29,748 bases of DNA from positions 1 to 29,748 of the IMG/VR virus record IMGVR_UViG_3300028392_000225; one strand, given 5' to 3'. Positions 3 to 11,873 of this stretch are shown piece by piece. Made by a program: the position numbers and the translations under genes. Numbering within the stretch: the first letter of the stretch is position 1; every line of letters starts with the position of its first letter. The stretch comes from a virus. The notes beneath the pieces were generated by a model that was not told where the DNA came from, made no database searches, and saw nothing but the letters and a program-made list of their open reading frames with translations.

Positions 3-1466
3 TCGTTCCAAGGCGTTATTGCCATGCAGCTACAGATGAACTTGATTCTCGAGTATCTCGTGCAGTGCGCAAAGGAACTGCAGGTATCACACGAGGCAGA
101 AATGATGAGATTGCAATTTGGATGGGTTGACGAAGACTCTAAGTTTATTTTGGGCGACCGAGAGATCGGCCCTAGCTTTATTCGGTATAGCCCGCCGTCT
201 AAGGCTACCCGTGAAGTGGCTCACGCCCTACGCCCCGCTGGTACGCTGGAGGACTGGAAAGACATCATCAATGTCTACAACATGTCTGGCTTTGAGCCAC
301 ATGCCTTCGCTGTGTTCACGGCATTTGGTGCACCGCTACTGAAGTTCATGAACCTCAAAGGCGGCATCATTAACCTAGTCAACAACCGCTCAGGTACGGG
401 CAAGTCCACCATCCTGCAGGTTATGAACAGCGTATGGGGGCATCCCGATTACCTGATGCTCCAGTGGCGGGATACTTTGAACGTGAAGCTACACCGCATG
501 GCTGTGATGTGTAACCTGCCAATCGGCGTGGATGAGATTACTAAGATGAGTGGTGACGACTTCTCCGACCTAGCCTATAGCGTTACCCAAGGCACACCAC
601 GGCGTCGTATGAAGGCGTCTGCCAACGAAGAGCGCGAGTCCCAAGGCTTCTGGGCAACCATGATGGTCAGCACTTCCAACTCAAGTATGACTGACAAACT
701 GGAGTCATTGAAGTCTACGTCTGAGGGTGAACTGATGCGCTTGTTGCAGTACAGGATTGACCCAACCAATAATCTAGACAAGGCCACAGCTAAGCATATC
801 TTCGGTCGGCTCAACAGCAACCACGGGTTAGCGGGTTTACCCTATGCTCAATATTTGGTGCAGAACCTAGAAGAAGTCGTTGATATGGCGTTACGTATGC
901 AACTTAAATTCGATGCCGCAGTAAAGATTGAGACTCGTGAACGCTACTGGTCGGGTATGGCGGCGGCTAACTTGACTGGCGCTCTGGTTGCTAAAAAGCT
1001 AGGGCTCCACGACATAGATGTCAGACGCGTCTACGACTGGTCAGTCAACGAAATCTCGGGTATGCAGAACGCAACACGCCTGACCTTCGAGGACTACGCT
1101 ACCGTGGTGGGTGAGTTCTTACTCAAGCACAACGTGAATACGCTAGTCTGCAACCGCCACAGCACATCCCGCTCCGGCATAGCCGCTTCACCTATCGTTA
1201 GCCCCAAGGGGTCGTTGATGATTCGCTATGAGCCTGACACCAAGAAGATATTCATCGTGCGCCAAGCACTAAAGGACTTCTGCGTAAGCCGCCAAGTTAC
1301 GTTTATGGACTTGCTCGAAGGCTTGAACAAGACTGGCGCATTCATAGCTGAGGTGCGCACTCGCTTAGATATTGGCATGGAGATGACCGTACCGCCCGTA
1401 GTAGCCCTAGAGTTCGACGCTGACCTGCTGGGCATTGCACCACCTACCGCTGGCGATGCGGATTGA
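3..1466 (+). CDS. DUF927-type phage replication ATPase/helicase, 5'-truncated
   Basis: The reading frame is open to the left edge of the window (in-frame codons from base 3), so the true start lies outside and this is the C-terminal part; the first in-frame ATG is at 24. A Walker A motif, RSGTGKST, is encoded at 387-410. A Walker B-like IGVDE follows, with its acidic pair at 531-536, and then a sensor-1-like stretch ending STSN. This spacing and the surrounding sequence resemble the DUF927 ATPase domain of phage and plasmid helicase-primases. The expected role is ATP-driven DNA unwinding during phage replication. It is one of only two plus-strand genes, so the replication genes probably lie to the left and converge on the late genes. 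A small gene overlaps its 3' end. The ATPase call is firm; the exact helicase subclass is inferred. Confidence 0.8.
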   Translation, partial: SFQGVIAMQLQMNLILEYLVQCAKELQVSHEAEMMRLQFGWVDEDSKFILGDREIGPSFIRYSPPSKATREVAHALRPAGTLEDWKDIINVYNMSGFEPHAFAVFTAFGAPLLKFMNLKGGIINLVNNRSGTGKSTILQVMNSVWGHPDYLMLQWRDTLNVKLHRMAVMCNLPIGVDEITKMSGDDFSDLAYSVTQGTPRRRMKASANEERESQGFWATMMVSTSNSSMTDKLESLKSTSEGELMRLLQYRIDPTNNLDKATAKHIFGRLNSNHGLAGLPYAQYLVQNLEEVVDMALRMQLKFDAAVKIETRERYWSGMAAANLTGALVAKKLGLHDIDVRRVYDWSVNEISGMQNATRLTFEDYATVVGEFLLKHNVNTLVCNRHSTSRSGIAASPIVSPKGSLMIRYEPDTKKIFIVRQALKDFCVSRQVTFMDLLEGLNKTGAFIAEVRTRLDIGMEMTVPPVVALEFDADLLGIAPPTAGDAD

Positions 1467-1702: not shown

Positions 1703-1732
1703 AGCCCCGCCTTAAACAGCGGGGCTTTTTTT
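1703..1732 (+). terminator. Rho-independent terminator of the plus-strand unit
   Basis: A perfect 8-bp stem, AGCCCCGC (1703-1710) with GCGGGGCT (1719-1726), closes an 8-base loop and runs into seven T residues (1726-1732). It lies between the convergent plus-strand small gene and the minus-strand giant gene, whose stop codon starts at the end of the T-run. On the minus strand the hairpin is followed by AATCACT, not a T-run, so it is not an obvious terminator for the late operon. A weaker 6-bp hairpin (GCAACT/AGTTGC, 1666-1680) lies just upstream. Nothing else is visible in this 75-base gap. Confidence 0.9.
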
Positions 1733-4700
1733 CACTGCTCAGCCAAGTAGTTATGTTGCTGAGTTAGCGCAGAGCGCATACGCTGATCAATGTACAGACC
1801 ATGATCTGTTTCTGCTTTCTTCACGTAACGGTTGAAGAGAGAGTTAATAATGGTGTCTGCATCAATAGCAACCTTGCCGTGCTTCTTGTTGAACTCCATC
1901 ATCTTGTCGAAGGATGATCTATTGGCGTCGTATTCATTTGACATGAACGTCAGCGCGTAATAGTTCAATAGATTCTGGCGTTCTTTCAGAACTGTTTGTT
2001 CTTGGCCCTTAACAGTAATGTTGTAGTACTGGCGCTCCGCTAACTCTTGTGAACGAAGGCCAGCAGACTGCATCAACAAAGTAAACGGTGTATCGTTTTC
2101 AGTAAGCAGGTCACCGCTTAAGTTAGTCGCGCCACCTTCTTTTGCCATGCGTTTGGCAATCAGCACATTCTTAATGAACGCAGGCGATATGGCTTCAATC
2201 GCACGATCGCCGTGACCTTGATTCCATAAATCAACTGCGCGGAAGGCGTTTACGCCTATGCCGATAGTTGGGCCAAGGCTATCCACTAAGAACGATTGCA
2301 GAGCTTCCGCTTCATCTTGGTTCTTACGCCCATCGCGCCACCACATATCATCGAGCTTCACACGGCTACCGATGTCCAACCCAGTCACAGCGTTGGGGAT
2401 ACCGCGAGTGATCGCAGTACCAACTTGTTTGCCGAAGGTCTTAGTAGCCCAGTCAACAAACGCTAACTCGAAGTCAAACGGAATTTCATCATCATCACCG
2501 CCCGCGATATTAAACACAGCGTTAACGACAGTCGCTACAGTGGAGAAGCCCCAGAGACCAGTTCCCCCACTCATGATGCCCGCCATACCCATCGTGCCAA
2601 CAAACCGCGCACGCGCTTCGCGTCTGACTTCGGGCGACTCGCCTTTGAGCGAGTTCACTAAGTTGTGCGCTAAAAAGAAAGTCATCTGCTGCGGGAACTG
2701 TTTGAACTGCAGGACGATGCGGGCGACGGGATGCTGGAAGTAGCGTGGTTTATTAGTTGACGAGTAGTCAAACATAGACCGGTTCGTTACATCTTTTGCG
2801 CTAGTAACAGCTTTGGTGAACGCGGCTCTTGGTGATATGCCAGCCTTAGTTGCTTCTGCATACGCTGACCGGAAGGCAGACATAGCCACCACTTCACGGT
2901 TAAACCGCTCAGCGTTATGGAACAAGTAAGTTAGTACTTGCATACTTCTATGGCGGAACCCAGAGTAGTTCTCTGTTGGTGTAGAAGCCAGACCAGACTG
3001 GTCATACGTAGCCGTAATATCAATCAGGCCCTCAGCAACAAACTTGTTGTAAGCCGCTTGCTCTACAGGGGTCAAGTCTGCAAACCTATCGAGCGGCGAT
3101 GCTATACCGCCCGCTACACCCGTACCGGTCAAGTTGTCGATACCGTGCGCACCGTGAGCAATGGCACCCGCCATCACTTGTGCCGCCGCTTTACTAGTCT
3201 CATAGAGAGTACGAGCAGTTGCTTCTGTGTAGGACATGTTGGGGTTAAGTTTGACTTTCTGCCCAACCAAAGTTGGGAAGCCAATCACCACACCACCAAG
3301 CACGTTGGTAATCGCAGAAGCGGCAGAAGATAGATAGTAGATGAAGCCCACGTTGGACAACATAGATGGGATAGTGCCTATGTCTGTTGGGTTCAAGATC
3401 AAATCTAGGCGACGTTTTGTCTCACCGATGTAATCGTTTAGCTCATCATTCTCACGAACCACTGTTGGGTCGTACCCAACTTTAGGATCAAATCTATCTT
3501 TTAACTGTAGTCTTGCCGCTTCCAACTGCGAGAACATCTCGGGAGAGAACTCGAAACGAGCAAGTTGATACGCCATATTGAACGATGATGAGGCAAAACT
3601 ACGGAGAGCATCTTCCGAGTAGCCCGCCTTGTTCTGGCGATGGATGAATCTTGTGCGCACACTGCGGTCAGGTTGGTACGCCAAGAACGACTGATAGAAG
3701 CTATCTTTCAGTGCTTGTTTCTTTTCATCAGCATCTTTTGGACTCAAACCTGTAACATCAATACCATCTACAGCGTTGAATGCTTCTTTGAGGAAGTTAG
3801 ATTGCTGCGCATGGAAGTCCATCTGCGACTTATAGTCGTTACCAATGCTAGACCCAATCGTGTCTGCCAGATGTGGGTCTTTAGCAATGCGCTCTTCGAG
3901 ATGGGCATCGCGGGCACCTTGGGACTCGAACATGTAGTATTCGCGGTTACCACGAGGGCCAATCTCATACCAAAAACGTCCGAAGCGCATCAGTGGGAAG
4001 TAGGGGCCTTTTAGTTTGCCCTTCTCAAACTCGTTGCGAATCTCAAGGATAGTTTTTTCAGACACACCCATCTGGCGCATTTGAATAATCCTACGATTCA
4101 TCAACTGTTTGTACCCACTATACCGGCGCTCGTAGAAGTCCCGCACGTCGCGGTACACCTTCTTAGCGCCCGCATCAAGTTTGTTCCATTCGATCATCAA
4201 CTGCTGGTTAGCGTTGCGCTGGTGTACTGTGGCTTTATCTGGGTCAATCTCAGTAATGGTAGCCGTGTGCATGACCAAGCCAAGTTGTCTAGACATCTCA
4301 GGGCTTTTGCTTTGGAGTTTTTCCCATGCCTTAGAGATTTCGCCGGACTCTTTAAGGATGTTGTTCTTGCGGGCAAGGAAGTTCTCAGTTACCTTAATGA
4401 AGTTGCTAAGTTGTGGGATGCGCCCAGCGACCAGATCATCAAGCTGGCGCAAAGTTAATAACCCCAACGCTGCAGGTCTAGCACTAGCAGACATACTCTG
4501 GAACTCTCTGATGGCTTGCTTAGACCATGAGCTAGATGTCAGTAGGCGGCGAATAGTTCCCGGCTGGTTAGGCATACCGGGTTTAAATGTTTTGACGCGT
4601 GCCTTCCGAGTACCGGTAGCCATAGGCTTAGCGCCGCCCGCAGTATTCAAGCCTTCCAAAGACATTGTTCCAGCAAGCAGAGCGTCAGTAGCAAGCATGG

Positions 4701-7700
4701 TTTCAACCATAACGTTGCTCTCACGACCGGGCTTAGCATTGAACATCTTACGGATAGCTTGTGTAAATTCGTTCCACAGCGAAACGGCCCAATTCTTATA
4801 CCCCAAGGTACGTAGGTGCGCTTGGAAGATCGGGTCTGTTAGTGCATAGGATACAAACTCGTGTAGATCGTAGAACTCGTTTGCAAATTCTTCACCTTGC
4901 AAAGTATTCTTAGAATATTCGTATAGCTCTACTAACCGGTCATAACCTTGGCGTTGTATGCCGGTCAGTTTGTCTGCATTGTCAATAAGATGTGAAGCCG
5001 CAGCGTGTAACGTCTCGTGCAGGAATAAATGGTTAGTTAGCCTACCGCCACCAGAACGCAACACTATTTCATCAGTGGCGGGATCGTATTTACCGTTCCA
5101 ATTGAACTCTTCAACTAGAAGATTGTTTGCGTTCTCTAGTGCTTGTTTCTGCGCCTCTGACGCACCTACAGAATCAATCGTATGCTGAAGTGTTTCTATT
5201 GCACTATGCAACTCACGTAATTTAGACGAACGTAGTCCTGCAATTATTGTGGCTTGCTGTGCTGTGGGGTACATAGTAACCACTATGTCGCGCAAGACTT
5301 CTAAGCGTTGTTCAAGAGATTCTTTAATAGCTGGGTCGTTGTTTAACGACTCTATAACATCCACGTCGATCAAACGCGATTTAGCGGTCATACCAGTATC
5401 TAGCAAACGCTGAGCCAAGGACGCATAGTAAGGGTTACCCTTAGCGTCAACCATAACTTCTAACGCTTCTTGTACCTTACCCTGCTCCAGCATACGTGTA
5501 ATGACTGGGTGCACTATGTTGATGCTAGGAAGATTTTTGACATTTACTAGTCGTTCTTCTTGCTCTTCCTTGATGTCACCAATACGCACCTTCTTAGGCG
5601 CTCTCTTTACTTTCTGTCCCGTACGTTTTTCGTAGGCATTAATTTGGTTTTTAGAGTACGCGTCATCTTCCTCAAGGAACTTAGAGGTAGCTTCTTTAAA
5701 CTTTACCCGCTCTGCATGATTGCGTGCGTGCTCTGCCACCATTGCATTAAGAATATCGACCGTACTCTGGTCCAGATTTAAAACAATCCACTCGCGGAAA
5801 TCTCGTGCGTACTCACCACCTTCGCCAAAGAACGTCGAGTTAGCCCCGTGGCGTTTAGGGTCTATAACACCATACGCAAGATCAAACGCTAAATCAGCAA
5901 GAGCTTCGCCAAGAGTGCTTCGGTTCTTACTGCTAAGATAATTTATGGCAGCACGCTGCCTATCGGATAAATTCTTTTTACCAGCAGAAAGTGTTTGCTT
6001 CAGTATGGTAAGCGCGGGCCGCCATTTTTTATCTACGATTACATGTTGAGTTTCTATCTCCACCTGATTGGGGCGGCGAGGTTTACCAGACTCATACTTA
6101 CTTGTTTTCGTTACTATGCCCGTTGTTGTAATAGTCTCTGTGTAGGGGATAGTCCGCCCGTGGAAAGGCGATGGCGTATTACGCGAAATTAGATTTACAC
6201 CTTCTCCAGAACTGTGTAAGTCGTTAACAAACTGTTGCACCTCATCACGGAATTGGTCCATGCCCCGGATGGTTGTTAGGTCTGGAAGGTCGAGCTTCTC
6301 AAACATGCGCGACTGTTGGGCGGGCGTGGAGTTGTATAACGCAGAGATGAGGCCCTTCAACTTCTCTACACCACCCACACGGCTGGCGAGATAATCCAAC
6401 ATCTTGCGTGCGCCTTCACTACTTTTCTGTCCGGGCTCTGCAATATCGTATTCCAGTAATGTTTCAGCGGCAGTACCTTTAGAACTACCGTGACGTATTA
6501 CGGACGCCTCTTCATTTGACTGAGGTTGAATGCTGTCAAAGAAGTCGCTAATAATTCCGCCTTCTTCAGTTTGCGGGATGTGTTCGGTATCGGTTTCAAG
6601 TTCTTCGTCTTCACCTATCTTTTGTGAAACATCTGCGCTTTTAAACTTGTAACCCTTGCTCTCCAGCACATCGTATATGTCAGCCACCTCGATAGCCGCG
6701 ACTCGATACTCTTGCTTGGCAACTTCTATATCAGCCATGATCTTGTCGATCTGGCTCTTAGGCGCGTCTTTAGCTGCGGCTTCTTGTAAAGAGGCTTCTA
6801 GTGCTCTGAACTTTTTCAAAGCAGTATCTCTGATGGCAGCGGCGGCGTCTAAATCTTTTTCGGTAACGTTTGCAAGTCTGTTTTCTTTTGCATAAGATAT
6901 ATCTTCCTGTTCTTTCTTTGACAGGTATTTTTCCCGTTGGGCTTGCTTTTCACTTGAAACAGTAAGCGGTTCGGGTCGCGCTTGTTTGACATCCTCAAAC
7001 AGTTTTGGTTGTTCTTGCGTAGACTCAACAGTAGTAGGGGCTGCGGGCTTTTTAAGTTCCGCTGGAGCCGTGTAGGTTTCTGCTTCCTTTTGAGTCTTCG
7101 CTATTTCTTTACGGGTGTCGTTAAGTTCTTTGTTGTAACTTACAGCCAATCCTTTGGCTTGGTTTATTTCTGAGCCAGAGGGTCGCGCAAATCTCTCTTC
7201 AACGGGACGAGCGCCTAGATCAGCTAAGCGTTTGTGCTCAGCTAAAGCGGCTTCATGTTTACGTTTAAGGTCCGCCTCACGTTGGGTAAGAATCTTCAAC
7301 CGCTCTTGGGGCGTTGTTTGAGTTACTTCGTAATCTACGTTCTTACGGCGTTTCTCAATGTCTTGCTGTTGTTTGATGAGCTCCATCCGAGCGATATTCG
7401 CTGGGTCAGTGGCATCGCCAATCATCTCACCCTGCTCACCTTCTAGGAGTTTGGCTTTTTCATCTTCGGTTAACTCAACAGCTTTAGTAGCGGGTATTTC
7501 ATCCTGCTTACCTTCACCAAACATATCGCCTTGGGATGGTCTAGCTCTACGTTTAAGTTGTTCAGCGGCCTGCTCAATATTAGCAAGCGTTTGGTCCAGT
7601 ATGTGTTTAGCTACCGTTTCTGGGTTTCTAGCCGCTTCGCCTTTTGTCATACCCAGTTGACTGCCATACGTCATACCAAAAACTGGGTCGTCTTTGTTCT

Positions 7701-9489
7701 TCTCAAACTCCGCTAATGCGCGTTGTTTTCTACTCTCCAGTTGTTGTAGAGCTTGAGCGGGGTCTCTTCCAGCCAACGCCATAGCAGACTGAGCGGCACG
7801 ATTAGCGCCACCAAAACTACCAAACATATTGCCTTGGGATGCTTTAGCTTTACCCACAACGTCGTTCGTAGCCATCTCACCAATGACTTTGTTGCCGTCG
7901 AATGCGGGATTTAAGAAACTAGATGTTCTTCCGCCAGCGGCTTCAATTTTGTCGGCGTTCGCAGTAACAACTTCATTGAAGTCTTTATATATCAAATCGA
8001 CCTGACGTCTATCTGCGTCTGTCGGATTAGGTTTGTTCATGAGCGTTAAAAGCTCACTGCGTAAATCGTTGTACTGACGAGAGAAATCTTCTAGTGAACT
8101 TGCTGGTGCAGCTTCTCTTCCAGCAGGTCTCGCAGGAGCCCTGTTAGCACGTACCACTCCGCTGGTGTCAGGCTCTCCAGCTCCTGTGGTGGTGGTTGCC
8201 GCAGGGGGCTGTGTATCCACGCTAACGCCTGCTCCAGTTGCGGGACTGATAGGTTGTCCAACATTTTGTATCTCCCCATGAGTATCTAGCACCGAACCTT
8301 TTTGTAGCTCTTGTTTTTTCTCTGCGGGTGTAAGAGCGCCTTTAACGCCGCCGGGTCCTGCGCCGCCCAAAAAGCCTAACGCCAAATTAGCGGCGGAATC
8401 TTCGCCCAGTTCTTGACTTGGCAAAACTTGTTTAACACCGATGTTGGCGGCTACGCCTTCACCTAGTTCTTGGATACCTTCTTCCAAGCCCTCCGCGCCC
8501 AATCCAACCGCACCCCTAGTTAAAGCGCCTTTGCCTACCTTGGCGATCAAGTGGTCAAACGCGCCGGTCATCAACTTACTGGTTATGTTAGAACCAAGCG
8601 CACCAACTAGTCCTTGCAAGATAGCGCCCGTCTCAGATGCTTTGCTGACAGTCAGTTCTTTTGCGCGTTCTGGTTTAACGCCACTATCTACTAGACCCTT
8701 ATAAAACGGGCTGACTTGATACATCTCATCAGTTGACAGCTTCTCTAGTTTTTCGCGTGCGTTTTGCGCTCCTTCGCCCGCAGCCATACCACCACCAACG
8801 GCAGTGCCACGACTAACAGCTTTAGTCGGGTCTTTGGTGAGCATCGACACTGCAAGAACAGGGCCCATAGAACCCAATACGCCAGCCGCTTGCAAAAGAT
8901 AACCACTTATTGTGGGGTCATCACCAAAACTAAACTCGCCCTTAAATATATTGCCTTTTGGGGTCGAGCCTTCTACGCGCCCCTTCCCGACCTCAGACAT
9001 GCTATCTTCAATATTTTTCTGCACGCCATAAGCGTAATCAGACAAACTTCGTAAACCGGGTACGTGAGGTATAGCACCTATTGCCTGCTCAATAAAAGCG
9101 CGTTCTTTTTGCTGATCTGCAATACTACGCCCAGTAACTTTCTCTTGGACCCGCATTTTGTCTAGGTCGTACTTAGCTTTAGTTTCGGGGGCAATAAGAC
9201 CCAAGAAAGACTCTAACGTATTTTCACCCGTTAGTGCATTACGTATCGTACCCCTAGCGGCTTGCTCAGCGCCTTCGGGTAAAGAACCAACACCGCCTAC
9301 AGTAGCGCCGGTTAGTTTCTTTAACGTATCCGCAATAGCTGAACCTACACCGTATTCTTGCTCTGAAGCTTTAACTACGGGGGGCTTTTCCTCGACCTTC
9401 TTCTCAGGCTTTTCTTCGGTCCGTTGAGCGAAAGGATCAAAGATCGCTGGCTCTTTACGTTGAGCGAACGGATCGAAGATTTCTGGCAT
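1732..9489 (-). CDS. Giant polyvalent ejection-type protein with HExxH metallopeptidase domain (2585 aa)
   Basis: The N-terminus carries two copies of IFDPFAQR. Hydrophobic Gly/Ala-rich segments follow around residues 190-380, then a long charged, coiled-coil-prone region at about 450-960. A zincin domain follows with HETLH at 1491-1495 (zinc ligands H1491 and H1495, catalytic E1492) and E1544 in HEF as the likely third ligand. Near 1830 is a GPYFPLMRFG motif, and hydrophobic segments occur near 2045 and 2295. The C-terminal third resembles the LPD38-type domain of large polyvalent phage proteins. Such proteins are thought to enter the host with the DNA, like T7 gp16. The ATG overlaps the upstream stop (TAATG), and the gene closes the late operon. 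The zincin motif is certain; substrate and ejection are inferred. Residues 552-831 also contain three sliding-clamp-like peptides. Confidence 0.85.
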   Translation of the reverse strand: MPEIFDPFAQRKEPAIFDPFAQRTEEKPEKKVEEKPPVVKASEQEYGVGSAIADTLKKLTGATVGGVGSLPEGAEQAARGTIRNALTGENTLESFLGLIAPETKAKYDLDKMRVQEKVTGRSIADQQKERAFIEQAIGAIPHVPGLRSLSDYAYGVQKNIEDSMSEVGKGRVEGSTPKGNIFKGEFSFGDDPTISGYLLQAAGVLGSMGPVLAVSMLTKDPTKAVSRGTAVGGGMAAGEGAQNAREKLEKLSTDEMYQVSPFYKGLVDSGVKPERAKELTVSKASETGAILQGLVGALGSNITSKLMTGAFDHLIAKVGKGALTRGAVGLGAEGLEEGIQELGEGVAANIGVKQVLPSQELGEDSAANLALGFLGGAGPGGVKGALTPAEKKQELQKGSVLDTHGEIQNVGQPISPATGAGVSVDTQPPAATTTTGAGEPDTSGVVRANRAPARPAGREAAPASSLEDFSRQYNDLRSELLTLMNKPNPTDADRRQVDLIYKDFNEVVTANADKIEAAGGRTSSFLNPAFDGNKVIGEMATNDVVGKAKASQGNMFGSFGGANRAAQSAMALAGRDPAQALQQLESRKQRALAEFEKNKDDPVFGMTYGSQLGMTKGEAARNPETVAKHILDQTLANIEQAAEQLKRRARPSQGDMFGEGKQDEIPATKAVELTEDEKAKLLEGEQGEMIGDATDPANIARMELIKQQQDIEKRRKNVDYEVTQTTPQERLKILTQREADLKRKHEAALAEHKRLADLGARPVEERFARPSGSEINQAKGLAVSYNKELNDTRKEIAKTQKEAETYTAPAELKKPAAPTTVESTQEQPKLFEDVKQARPEPLTVSSEKQAQREKYLSKKEQEDISYAKENRLANVTEKDLDAAAAIRDTALKKFRALEASLQEAAAKDAPKSQIDKIMADIEVAKQEYRVAAIEVADIYDVLESKGYKFKSADVSQKIGEDEELETDTEHIPQTEEGGIISDFFDSIQPQSNEEASVIRHGSSKGTAAETLLEYDIAEPGQKSSEGARKMLDYLASRVGGVEKLKGLISALYNSTPAQQSRMFEKLDLPDLTTIRGMDQFRDEVQQFVNDLHSSGEGVNLISRNTPSPFHGRTIPYTETITTTGIVTKTSKYESGKPRRPNQVEIETQHVIVDKKWRPALTILKQTLSAGKKNLSDRQRAAINYLSSKNRSTLGEALADLAFDLAYGVIDPKRHGANSTFFGEGGEYARDFREWIVLNLDQSTVDILNAMVAEHARNHAERVKFKEATSKFLEEDDAYSKNQINAYEKRTGQKVKRAPKKVRIGDIKEEQEERLVNVKNLPSINIVHPVITRMLEQGKVQEALEVMVDAKGNPYYASLAQRLLDTGMTAKSRLIDVDVIESLNNDPAIKESLEQRLEVLRDIVVTMYPTAQQATIIAGLRSSKLRELHSAIETLQHTIDSVGASEAQKQALENANNLLVEEFNWNGKYDPATDEIVLRSGGGRLTNHLFLHETLHAAASHLIDNADKLTGIQRQGYDRLVELYEYSKNTLQGEEFANEFYDLHEFVSYALTDPIFQAHLRTLGYKNWAVSLWNEFTQAIRKMFNAKPGRESNVMVETMLATDALLAGTMSLEGLNTAGGAKPMATGTRKARVKTFKPGMPNQPGTIRRLLTSSSWSKQAIREFQSMSASARPAALGLLTLRQLDDLVAGRIPQLSNFIKVTENFLARKNNILKESGEISKAWEKLQSKSPEMSRQLGLVMHTATITEIDPDKATVHQRNANQQLMIEWNKLDAGAKKVYRDVRDFYERRYSGYKQLMNRRIIQMRQMGVSEKTILEIRNEFEKGKLKGPYFPLMRFGRFWYEIGPRGNREYYMFESQGARDAHLEERIAKDPHLADTIGSSIGNDYKSQMDFHAQQSNFLKEAFNAVDGIDVTGLSPKDADEKKQALKDSFYQSFLAYQPDRSVRTRFIHRQNKAGYSEDALRSFASSSFNMAYQLARFEFSPEMFSQLEAARLQLKDRFDPKVGYDPTVVRENDELNDYIGETKRRLDLILNPTDIGTIPSMLSNVGFIYYLSSAASAITNVLGGVVIGFPTLVGQKVKLNPNMSYTEATARTLYETSKAAAQVMAGAIAHGAHGIDNLTGTGVAGGIASPLDRFADLTPVEQAAYNKFVAEGLIDITATYDQSGLASTPTENYSGFRHRSMQVLTYLFHNAERFNREVVAMSAFRSAYAEATKAGISPRAAFTKAVTSAKDVTNRSMFDYSSTNKPRYFQHPVARIVLQFKQFPQQMTFFLAHNLVNSLKGESPEVRREARARFVGTMGMAGIMSGGTGLWGFSTVATVVNAVFNIAGGDDDEIPFDFELAFVDWATKTFGKQVGTAITRGIPNAVTGLDIGSRVKLDDMWWRDGRKNQDEAEALQSFLVDSLGPTIGIGVNAFRAVDLWNQGHGDRAIEAISPAFIKNVLIAKRMAKEGGATNLSGDLLTENDTPFTLLMQSAGLRSQELAERQYYNITVKGQEQTVLKERQNLLNYYALTFMSNEYDANRSSFDKMMEFNKKHGKVAIDADTIINSLFNRYVKKAETDHGLYIDQRMRSALTQQHNYLAEQ
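9422..9480. repeat. Tandem 23-base direct repeat encoding IFDPFAQR twice
   Basis: Two near-identical 23-base copies lie at 9422-9444 and 9458-9480, giving a 36-base (12-codon) period. They encode the doubled IFDPFAQR peptide at the extreme N-terminus of the giant protein. The copies differ at only two positions. Confidence 0.85.
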
Positions 9490-11873
9490 TACTTATTCCC
9501 GTAATTCTGGTGGTAGTACGCTGCTAGTTGATCGTCAGTATAGTCTTTGTTTTGTGGAGCTTTCCTAGCTTCCGCAATAAACTGCGCAAGGGTCGGTGTA
9601 CCAGTAGCCGCACCAGCGGCTGGTGCCGCAGTGCCATCACTGCCCGCATACTTCTTGGCTCTTTCAAGCTCAGTGTTGTAGCGGTTCTGTAAGAACGCCC
9701 GCTTCTGGGTTAGTTGAGCGTCTTGTGCTGGGGTACGTTTCTCCATACCTTCCAACTGTGCGACTTCCATCTGCGCCAGACCAACACCCTTGTCCTTAGA
9801 CAAAGAGTCCATGACCATCTTGTGGTGCTCCCAGTCTTTGTTTTGACCAGTAAATCTGACACCGAGCCTAGATGCGTTTGTCGCAGCCACGGCTTCTTGA
9901 TAGGCTTTGGCAGCGGCTGGTCCTTTTTGACCGTTGAAAGAGTCTTCGCCTCTATAAATAGCATCTGCCTTAGCCATCATGCGTTCTGTCTCACCGGGCT
10001 TATTGGCAGTATCTCTAGCAGAGGCAGCAGCAATCTCAGAAGATTTAATGCCAGCAGCAGAAGTGAGGCCCTTCTCAAGAATGCCCGCCCGCATCTCTTC
10101 AGCCTTCTGAGACAACATGTTGTTAGCCGCGTTGAGGTCAGCAGCTTTACCAGTCATGCCGTCCTTACGTGCTTGGTTAGCACCAACCAACGCGATCTCC
10201 GCCTGACGATCGAGTCTGTCAGCTTCTTTAAACTCTTTAATAGCGGCTGTGCCTTCTCTGCCAGCAGCACCGATTGTTTTACCAAGCACATGTCGTAGGC
10301 TCGGTCCCGAACTGAGTGCTTCAGCGGCGGCAAACGCCATACGCCCTTTGGCGTCGTCCATGCTTTTCTCTTTATTTGCAGCACGGTCGGTTTTAATTTG
10401 TTCGACGTAGGGGTCTAATTGGCTAGGGCCATATGCCTTCTCTAACCCAGTCTGAAATTTGCCAATACCTTCTATAGTCTGCTCGGGTGTTGGTGCATCC
10501 TTAACATTAAAGTCAGATAACTTTTTCTGGTAGTCTTCGTAACTTGTGCCACCACCAAGGGCAAACGCAACGATACCGCCGTTGGCATGACGAGTCATGT
10601 TGTCAGCAAATTGTGCAGGTACTTGTCCAGAAACACCACGACGAATCGCGGCATCTTCACTCATCTCGTTCTGCGCGGCTAGTTGTGTCTCTAAGTCACC
10701 ACGGGCTTGCGCACCCATAGCAGCGGCTTGTAGACCTCTGTCAGTGGGGATGTTGCCAACCGCATCTTCTTTAAATTCGCGGCTCATCACACTGCCACCG
10801 GGGACAGCGCCACCTAAACCTCCGCCCGCCATACTCTTGACGGTGCCGCCCTCGGCTTTGAACATCTGCCCAATACCGTACGCGCCTAGACCCAACGACC
10901 CAATAGACTGGGCGGTAGAAGGTGGTGGTGTATATACAGACGCAGTTGATTGCTGACCCAGTGGCAAACCACGGATAAGGTCGGACATGAAGCCCAACTG
11001 CTTGTATGGGTAGTTCTGTTGATTCTGGAAGTCAGAGTATGCTTGTGTAAGCCCTTGCTGTTGCAGAGCTTGTTGCTGCCCGCCGTACTGGTTCTGCAGG
11101 GTGTTGATACCCATACCTTGTTGGTATTGTTGTTGACCCAAATTACCCAACTGACCTGCGGCTTGGTTAGCCATCCCGTAACCTGCAAGTTGATTCTGCA
11201 AGTTCTGGTTGTATTGATTTTGTGCGTTGGTATACGCAGTGTTTAGGCCCTGACCATAGATTTGGTTCAGACCCGTATTACGATTACGTTCGTTTTCCGC
11301 AGCCATGATCGCTTCACGGGAACCGCCAAACGCACCGGCTTGCGTCGCTGCGCTCTGTTGTTTAGTAGCACCAATATCATAGTTACGGTTAGCTTCGGCT
11401 AGTTGAGGAGCCAAAATCTGGTTCATGTACGGGTTCGTGTACCCGCCAACTTGGTTCTGGAAACCGCCTACATTAGATTGCCCAGCAACATCAAGACCAC
11501 CTAAGCCCGCGCCAGTAGCGGCGGCTGTGCCCTGACCTATTTGGGGAGCAACCTGCATATTTGCAGCGCCTTGAAAAGACTGCTGCTGCATTGGGGAAAA
11601 CCCGGCTATACGCGGGTTTGAGTAAGTTTGGTACGGGTTCTGGTTAACGTCGGTAAGAGCTTGGCCTTTAGCTAATGCTTCCTTAGCGTAGCCGCGTGCC
11701 CACTCTGGTAACTCAGTAGTCTGGGTTGTTGTAGATGTAGTATTGGCTGGCTGCGCGGCACCGCCGCCGCCAGAGTCACCTTGGGGTCTGATTTTGCGGT
11801 CGCCGATATGCTTAAACGCTTCCTCTGGAAGGTCTGGAATATCTAACAAGGCTTTAGCAGAATTCATTCTCAT
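9489..11873 (-). CDS. Large Q/N-rich internal virion/ejection-type protein (794 aa)
   Basis: The start overlaps the upstream GNAT-like gene (ATGA), and the stop overlaps the start of the giant gene. The first 60 residues are polar. Residues about 190-290 are strikingly rich in Gln, Asn, Tyr and Gly (motifs such as NQYNQNLQNQLAGYG). Short glycine-hinge peptides follow (AEGGTVKSMAGGG, ANGGIVAFALGGG), and the C-terminal half is Ala/Lys/Glu-rich and helix-prone, including a long run between residues 520 and 740. I see no enzyme motif. The position between a T7 gp13-like candidate and the giant protein parallels T7 genes 14-15, so it is probably an internal core or DNA-ejection protein. That role is inferred from order and composition. 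A second start at Met3 is possible. Confidence 0.65.
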   Translation of the reverse strand: MRMNSAKALLDIPDLPEEAFKHIGDRKIRPQGDSGGGGAAQPANTTSTTTQTTELPEWARGYAKEALAKGQALTDVNQNPYQTYSNPRIAGFSPMQQQSFQGAANMQVAPQIGQGTAAATGAGLGGLDVAGQSNVGGFQNQVGGYTNPYMNQILAPQLAEANRNYDIGATKQQSAATQAGAFGGSREAIMAAENERNRNTGLNQIYGQGLNTAYTNAQNQYNQNLQNQLAGYGMANQAAGQLGNLGQQQYQQGMGINTLQNQYGGQQQALQQQGLTQAYSDFQNQQNYPYKQLGFMSDLIRGLPLGQQSTASVYTPPPSTAQSIGSLGLGAYGIGQMFKAEGGTVKSMAGGGLGGAVPGGSVMSREFKEDAVGNIPTDRGLQAAAMGAQARGDLETQLAAQNEMSEDAAIRRGVSGQVPAQFADNMTRHANGGIVAFALGGGTSYEDYQKKLSDFNVKDAPTPEQTIEGIGKFQTGLEKAYGPSQLDPYVEQIKTDRAANKEKSMDDAKGRMAFAAAEALSSGPSLRHVLGKTIGAAGREGTAAIKEFKEADRLDRQAEIALVGANQARKDGMTGKAADLNAANNMLSQKAEEMRAGILEKGLTSAAGIKSSEIAAASARDTANKPGETERMMAKADAIYRGEDSFNGQKGPAAAKAYQEAVAATNASRLGVRFTGQNKDWEHHKMVMDSLSKDKGVGLAQMEVAQLEGMEKRTPAQDAQLTQKRAFLQNRYNTELERAKKYAGSDGTAAPAAGAATGTPTLAQFIAEARKAPQNKDYTDDQLAAYYHQNYGNK

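Follow-up and report, generated by a model that had tools for sequence, protein, structure and literature searches.

Repeated candidate sliding-clamp-binding motifs in the linkers of a giant virion-type phage protein

Introduction

The known phage proteins that attack the host sliding clamp or its loader are separate, dedicated inhibitors. Twort gp168 and G1 gp240 inhibit DnaN of Staphylococcus aureus, and gp8 of phage N4 targets HolA, the delta subunit of the clamp loader, disabling host clamp loading (PMC3594737). Clamp-binding motifs have been defined as Q-aliphatic-x-[L/M]-[F/L], where the F is strictly required and the Gln is important, not essential; position 2 tolerates substitution at reduced affinity, position 3 slightly favours Asp, and the residues flanking known motifs are often acidic (PMC11139829). 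The internal clamp-binding motif of Escherichia coli DnaE (Pol III alpha) is QADMF, at residues 920-924.

Polyvalent proteins, which carry several unrelated domains in one chain, including LPD or MPTase domains, have been described and include DarB/DdrB types (PMC5512222). Self-processing by built-in peptidase domains has been proposed for them in general, and an MPTase assignment has been published for the N4 virion RNA polymerase (vRNAP); clamp, linker or disordered motifs are not mentioned in that paper (PMC5512222).

Here we analyse a stretch of DNA of 29,748 nucleotides from a lake phage (the window), which encodes a giant protein with several peptides of the form Q..[LM]F. Like Twort gp168 and G1 gp240, this phage protein is proposed to be aimed at host DnaN for shut-off of host replication; however, those two proteins are dedicated inhibitors, whereas here a conserved short motif is present in multiple copies within a giant virion-type protein. 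In the open-access literature, we found no report of clamp motifs in a virion-borne polyvalent protein, and no paper on the peptides QGDLF, QGNLF, QGDMF, QGNMF or QSDLF.

Results and Discussion

The giant protein and its neighbours

The giant-protein gene occupies positions 1732..9489 on the minus strand, and its product is a polyvalent, virion-type protein of 2585 aa. An N-terminal stretch (residues 196-545; 7855..8904, minus strand) matches phrog_2206 (E 1.1e-18), namely the N-terminal part (profile 234-547) of the PHROG of N4-like virion RNA polymerases. In its C-terminal third, residues 1674-2582 match PHROG families of giant phage proteins; the best match bears the name 'DarB-like antirestriction', and others are unknown families. 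The protein also contains LPD39, a large polyvalent protein associated domain (PF18858; residues 1665-1830; 4000..4497, minus strand), with a score of 72 bits that exceeds the Pfam cut-off. Between these regions, conservation and a fold model delimit a metallopeptidase-like domain (residues ~1440-1605; 4675..5172, minus strand) containing the HExxH sequence HETLH (residues 1491-1495; 5005-5019, minus strand), which is invariant across 36 aligned relatives and is placed by the model on a confident central helix. The closest Foldseek matches of this region are N4 vRNAP gp50 and zincin structures, all of them weak (E ~0.5 or worse), in agreement with the MPTase assignment published for N4 vRNAP (PMC5512222); a weak Tox-MPTase4 match was also found. 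The domain is followed by a disordered linker (residues 1604-1658; 4516..4680, minus strand) according to model and alignment.

The N-terminal PHROG match and the weak fold match of the HExxH region are thus shared with N4 vRNAP gp50. In contrast to N4, no Pfam match to an RNA polymerase domain was found in the giant protein, which does not qualify as an N4-like virion RNA polymerase, and the clamp-loader inhibitor of N4 is encoded by a separate gene. With polyvalent proteins (PMC5512222), the giant protein shares LPD39, the HExxH domain, GNAT insertions in some relatives and a late-gene neighbourhood. The combination of LPD39 and the HExxH domain, the fold match of the latter being weak, places it among proteins of this kind, and its gene sits among virion genes, as do those of polyvalent proteins. 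The neighbouring gene (9489..11873, minus strand) matches the PHROG 'DNA ejection protein' (phrog_4287, E 4.5e-20). Because of this neighbour and the PHROG and LPD family matches, the giant protein is likely packaged in the virion and injected. The initial annotation had called it an ejected virion protein; gene context and family agree with that description, and ejection itself is what we infer from them.

Several further features of the locus were observed. A DUF927 or primase-helicase-like ORF (24-1466, plus strand) is convergent with the giant gene at the end of the window. Near the N-terminus of the giant protein, a short aromatic peptide is repeated at least twice in the window (residues 4-23; 9421-9480) and in the relatives L001-L044. 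It varies between phages and repeats within each (IFDPFAQR, NFFDQFD, GPWDQY, NPFAQFA and SPEEWLA, each twice), and possibly represents a packaging or docking tag.

Three motif sites in disordered linkers

Exactly four Q..[LM]F pentapeptides are present in the protein, at residues 552, 653, 827 and 1059. Site 1 is QGNMF (residues 552-556; 7822..7836) in the context SQGNMFG, site 2 is QGDMF (residues 653-657; 7519..7533) in the context SQGDMFG, and site 3 is QPKLF (residues 827-831; 6997..7011) in the context EQPKLF, all on the minus strand. These three peptides had been reported at these residues, within 6997-7836, and our check of the translation bears this out. QSRMF (residues 1059-1063; 6301..6315, minus strand), previously offered as a weaker fourth copy, is rejected as a motif because it lies inside a helix modelled with confidence and varies freely among relatives, which read QSRLL, QGRLY or QQAIF.

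In an AlphaFold2 model built from 32 family sequences (protein residue = model number + 439), confident helical modules are joined by low-confidence linkers. The segments below pLDDT 50 include residues 544-559, 652-673 and 816-853, which hold sites 1, 2 and 3, respectively. The middle of the protein had been described as disordered or coiled-coil; this holds for the linkers that carry the sites, but they join confident helical modules. Alignment and model delimit one such module before site 1 (residues 465-543; 7861..8097, minus strand) and another between sites 1 and 2 (residues 560-650; 7540..7812, minus strand). A fold search with the middle region, which is helical only, gave no significant match. 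According to the model, sites 1-3 occupy the accessible, often disordered kind of position in which clamp-binding motifs are found. In the giant protein of the nearest relative (L001), a GNAT acetyltransferase-like domain (residues ~600-710) is inserted directly after the site-2 motif, and weak GNAT Pfam matches were obtained in 4 of 32 relatives; judging from the L001 insertion, the site-2 linker appears to be a place where modules are inserted.

The number of sites exceeds the chance expectation. For the whole protein, four Q..[LM]F were observed against 0.55 expected, a count reached by 0.25% of shuffles; for residues 401-1000, three were observed against 0.08 expected (0.04% of shuffles), and none of the shuffles of these residues contained two QG[ND]MF. 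As a control, we counted every alternative placement of Q, L/M and F within a pentapeptide, 59 in all. In the aligned region of the 32 relatives, these averaged 1.2 occurrences and never exceeded 5, compared with 70 for Q..[LM]F.

Conservation among relatives

We collected 45 related loci from IMG/VR and extracted the full-length giant proteins; 32 relatives entered the alignment of the motif region. L001 is ~70% identical to the window protein over this region, while most others are only 22-42% identical in the middle region, so that conservation there is informative. Site 1 is intact in 25 of the 32 relatives, site 2 in 28 and site 3 in 13, the linker of site 3 being absent in 15. Sites 1 and 2 are spaced 101-103 residues apart in most relatives, e.g. 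PRAMQGNLFG ... PRAMQGDLFG. The contexts of site 3 vary (EQPKLF, PEQVDMFG, PVQTSMF, PAQSELF), and many of them keep Q..[LM]F alone, as in QPKLF, QVDMF, QESLF, QTSMF and QSELF.

Among 451 columns ranked by conservation, F657 is first, F556 fourth and Q653 eighth. With L and M merged, we counted changes on a tree built from the C-terminal domain, separate from the motif region. Motif positions 1, 4 and 5 required 5, 1 and 2 steps at site 1, 2, 1 and 0 at site 2, and 3, 3 and 4 at site 3, compared with 10 for the median column and 11-16 for neighbouring linker columns. Motif positions 2-3 and most flanks drift across relatives at the three sites. A three-residue comb with spacing (0,3,4) scored highest exactly at 552, 653 and 827, the next frame at site 1 being nearly equal. 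The expectation in the initial annotation that Q, M/L and F stay fixed while their flanks vary was therefore borne out at sites 1-3 in the 32 relatives. Moreover, the 48 motif occurrences are encoded by 34 distinct DNA 18-mers with varying synonymous codons, which shows that selection acts at the protein level. The conservation has exceptions: Q is lost in some copies, with R, A or T in its place or as in KGDLF, and the relative L020 has no intact linker copy of Q..[LM]F.

Q..[LM]F in this form belongs to a single phage lineage. In the large contigs of three relative phages, the giant protein alone carries more than one Q..[LM]F. The possibility that Q..[LM]F is general to giant polyvalent phage proteins was rejected, since we counted 7 copies in 16 long ORFs of 13 loci from other phages, where the remaining letter orders predict 5.8; the DarB-type relatives that other phages encode are without the motif.

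Resemblance to the clamp-binding motif of DnaE

All three sites have Gln at position 1, and the required [L/M]-[F/L] at positions 4 and 5 is present as M-F, M-F and L-F and is nearly invariant in relatives. Position 2 is not aliphatic, being G, G and P in the window and Gly or Ser in most relatives; natural DnaE motifs also depart from an aliphatic residue here (G, S, T, H, N, D). The Gly or Pro at this position predicts weak single-site affinity, which would fit the presence of several copies and the occasional loss of Q in one of them. The upstream flanks of sites 1 and 2 are basic, unlike those of most known clamp motifs.

The internal clamp motif follows the pattern GQxD[ML]FG across a set of 80 gammaproteobacterial DnaE proteins, five of which have exactly QGDMFG, identical to site 2. 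With a six-position profile of the DnaE motif, QGDMFG of the window (653) scored 20.0, versus a best score of 15.0 in 300 shuffles of the protein. QVDMFG, QTDMFG and QSDMFG of other relatives all occur in DnaE. The likeness is thus closer than first described, since some natural DnaE proteins carry the very hexapeptide of site 2. The phage and DnaE motifs share Q-x-D-[ML]-F-G, a preceding helix rich in A, E and Q, and a tolerant position 2. However, the phage motif differs in being repeated two to three times in disordered linkers with a basic upstream flank, in a protein in which no polymerase was detected.

On sequence grounds, Q..[LM]F resembles a clamp-binding motif and probably functions as one. 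We treat it as a candidate rather than a proven member of the class, because position 2 lies outside the consensus and the flanks are basic. That sites 1-3 are functional clamp-binding motifs seems to us reasonably likely.

Similar peptides were seen at the ends of other proteins. PcfK-like proteins on unrelated viral contigs (L075, L089, L091 and L093) end in the clamp-like tails MQGDLFGF and QQDLFGF, by which they may bind the sliding clamp. The first of these tails were found with a pattern demanding AMQG[ND]LFG, and the AM in them is therefore not independent evidence. A 180-aa ORF on the minus strand of L085, with no Pfam match, ends ...ERRAMQGDLFGWMADS, another candidate clamp-binding tail.

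A second linker motif and alternative explanations

Directly before Q..[LM]F, sites 1 and 2 have [PA][RK][AG]M, which is conserved too, at site 1 about as much as Q. The conserved block is therefore wider than a clamp motif, and part of the conservation has another cause. P[RK]AM is found 53 times in the family, whereas no other permutation of these letters exceeds 5. A further copy, with no Q..[LM]F beside it, sits in the disordered linker past the metallopeptidase-like domain, where relatives read P[KR]AMA and the window has AKPMATG (residues ~1614-1620). Relatives thus carry [PA][RK][AG]M at two or three linkers; in the L004 protein, the linker copies lie at residues 543, 646 and 1379.

These observations bear on a reading in which [PA][RK][AG]M-Q-[GS]-[ND]-[LM]-F as a whole is a processing site between modules, cut by the protein's own HExxH domain or by another protease, the clamp likeness being incidental. 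The invariance of HExxH, the self-processing proposed for polyvalent proteins (PMC5512222) and the excess of P[RK]AM over its other letter orders, with a copy on its own past the metallopeptidase-like domain, are in line with it, as is the fact that in several clades the tetrapeptide takes matching variants at all three linkers. However, the clade of the window has lost PRAM at the linkers and kept Q..[LM]F, at site 3 Q..[LM]F stands with no PRAM and with Pro, Val or Glu after Q, and the third PRAM linker lacks Q..[LM]F. The two motifs are therefore separable, and we regard a joint processing site as unlikely. A processing role may fit PRAM itself: by analogy with the proposed self-processing, [PA][RK][AG]M may be a site for the built-in peptidase, and this is the chief competing account for part of the conservation.

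A second alternative is that Q..[LM]F serves as a docking peptide for a structural or ejection protein of the phage, for packaging of the giant protein into the virion. This would suit a motif confined to one phage lineage and a gene that lies among virion genes and adjoins an ejection-protein gene, and the duplicated N-terminal peptide is suggestive of repeated docking. It is nevertheless somewhat less probable still than the processing site, given the match to the DnaE clamp motif down to the trailing Gly and the similar peptides at the ends of the unrelated PcfK-like proteins.

Tandem duplication of a whole ~100-residue module was rejected, as hhalign of the two modules pairs the motif tail only (26 columns). 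This short alignment looks as if a linker had been copied, but the explanation that neutral linker sequence was copied in a module duplication and conserved by recent ancestry alone is very improbable, since the fewest changes on the tree fall in the motif columns, against 11-16 in linker columns nearby, and synonymous codons vary.

Probable partner and proposed mode of action

If Q..[LM]F binds a clamp, the clamp may be that of the host or of the phage. Searches of the window and of a set of relatives, records which may be fragments, found neither a bacterial-type nor a PCNA-type clamp. A phage-encoded clamp as partner of the motif was accordingly set aside, the search for a T4-type clamp in the same material having had no working control. 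Pol III alpha was sought in the relatives and none was found; a family-A DNA polymerase is encoded in 15 of 16 relatives. Since the relatives supply a family-A polymerase of their own and yielded no clamp, we prefer shut-off or hijacking of the host's clamp to the use of one made by the phage, and host DnaN is the favoured candidate partner. A search of bacterial genomes for relatives that would point to the host found none.

We propose that sites 1-3 act as repeated motifs of the DnaE-internal type (Q-x-[D/N]-[L/M]-F-G) in flexible linkers of a polyvalent protein delivered with the virion. After injection, the whole protein or processed modules would dock on the DnaN ring of the host, and several weak copies would provide avidity. 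Since a single helical module separates sites 1 and 2, these two could occupy both pockets of the DnaN dimer. Once docked on the clamp, the protein or its modules would displace the polymerase of the host or keep phage modules tethered at the fork. Injection, the binding to DnaN and its consequence for host replication (shut-off or recruitment) are all predictions from sequence. An action of the motifs on host DnaN as infection begins is a tentative suggestion, appreciably less secure than clamp binding as such. A fuller scenario is doubtful: the injected protein would capture DnaN through several DnaE-mimicking motifs within the first moments of infection, ahead of any phage gene expression, and the second linker motif would let its own metallopeptidase-like domain free the clamp-binding modules.

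Implications

If host DnaN is indeed the partner, the replisome would be a target from entry onward, through a DnaE-like motif repeated in an injected giant protein. Such a motif would also give functions to the anonymous linkers of polyvalent proteins, and copies of Q..[LM]F in disordered linkers would provide a testable rule by which viral dark matter could be searched for clamp ligands.
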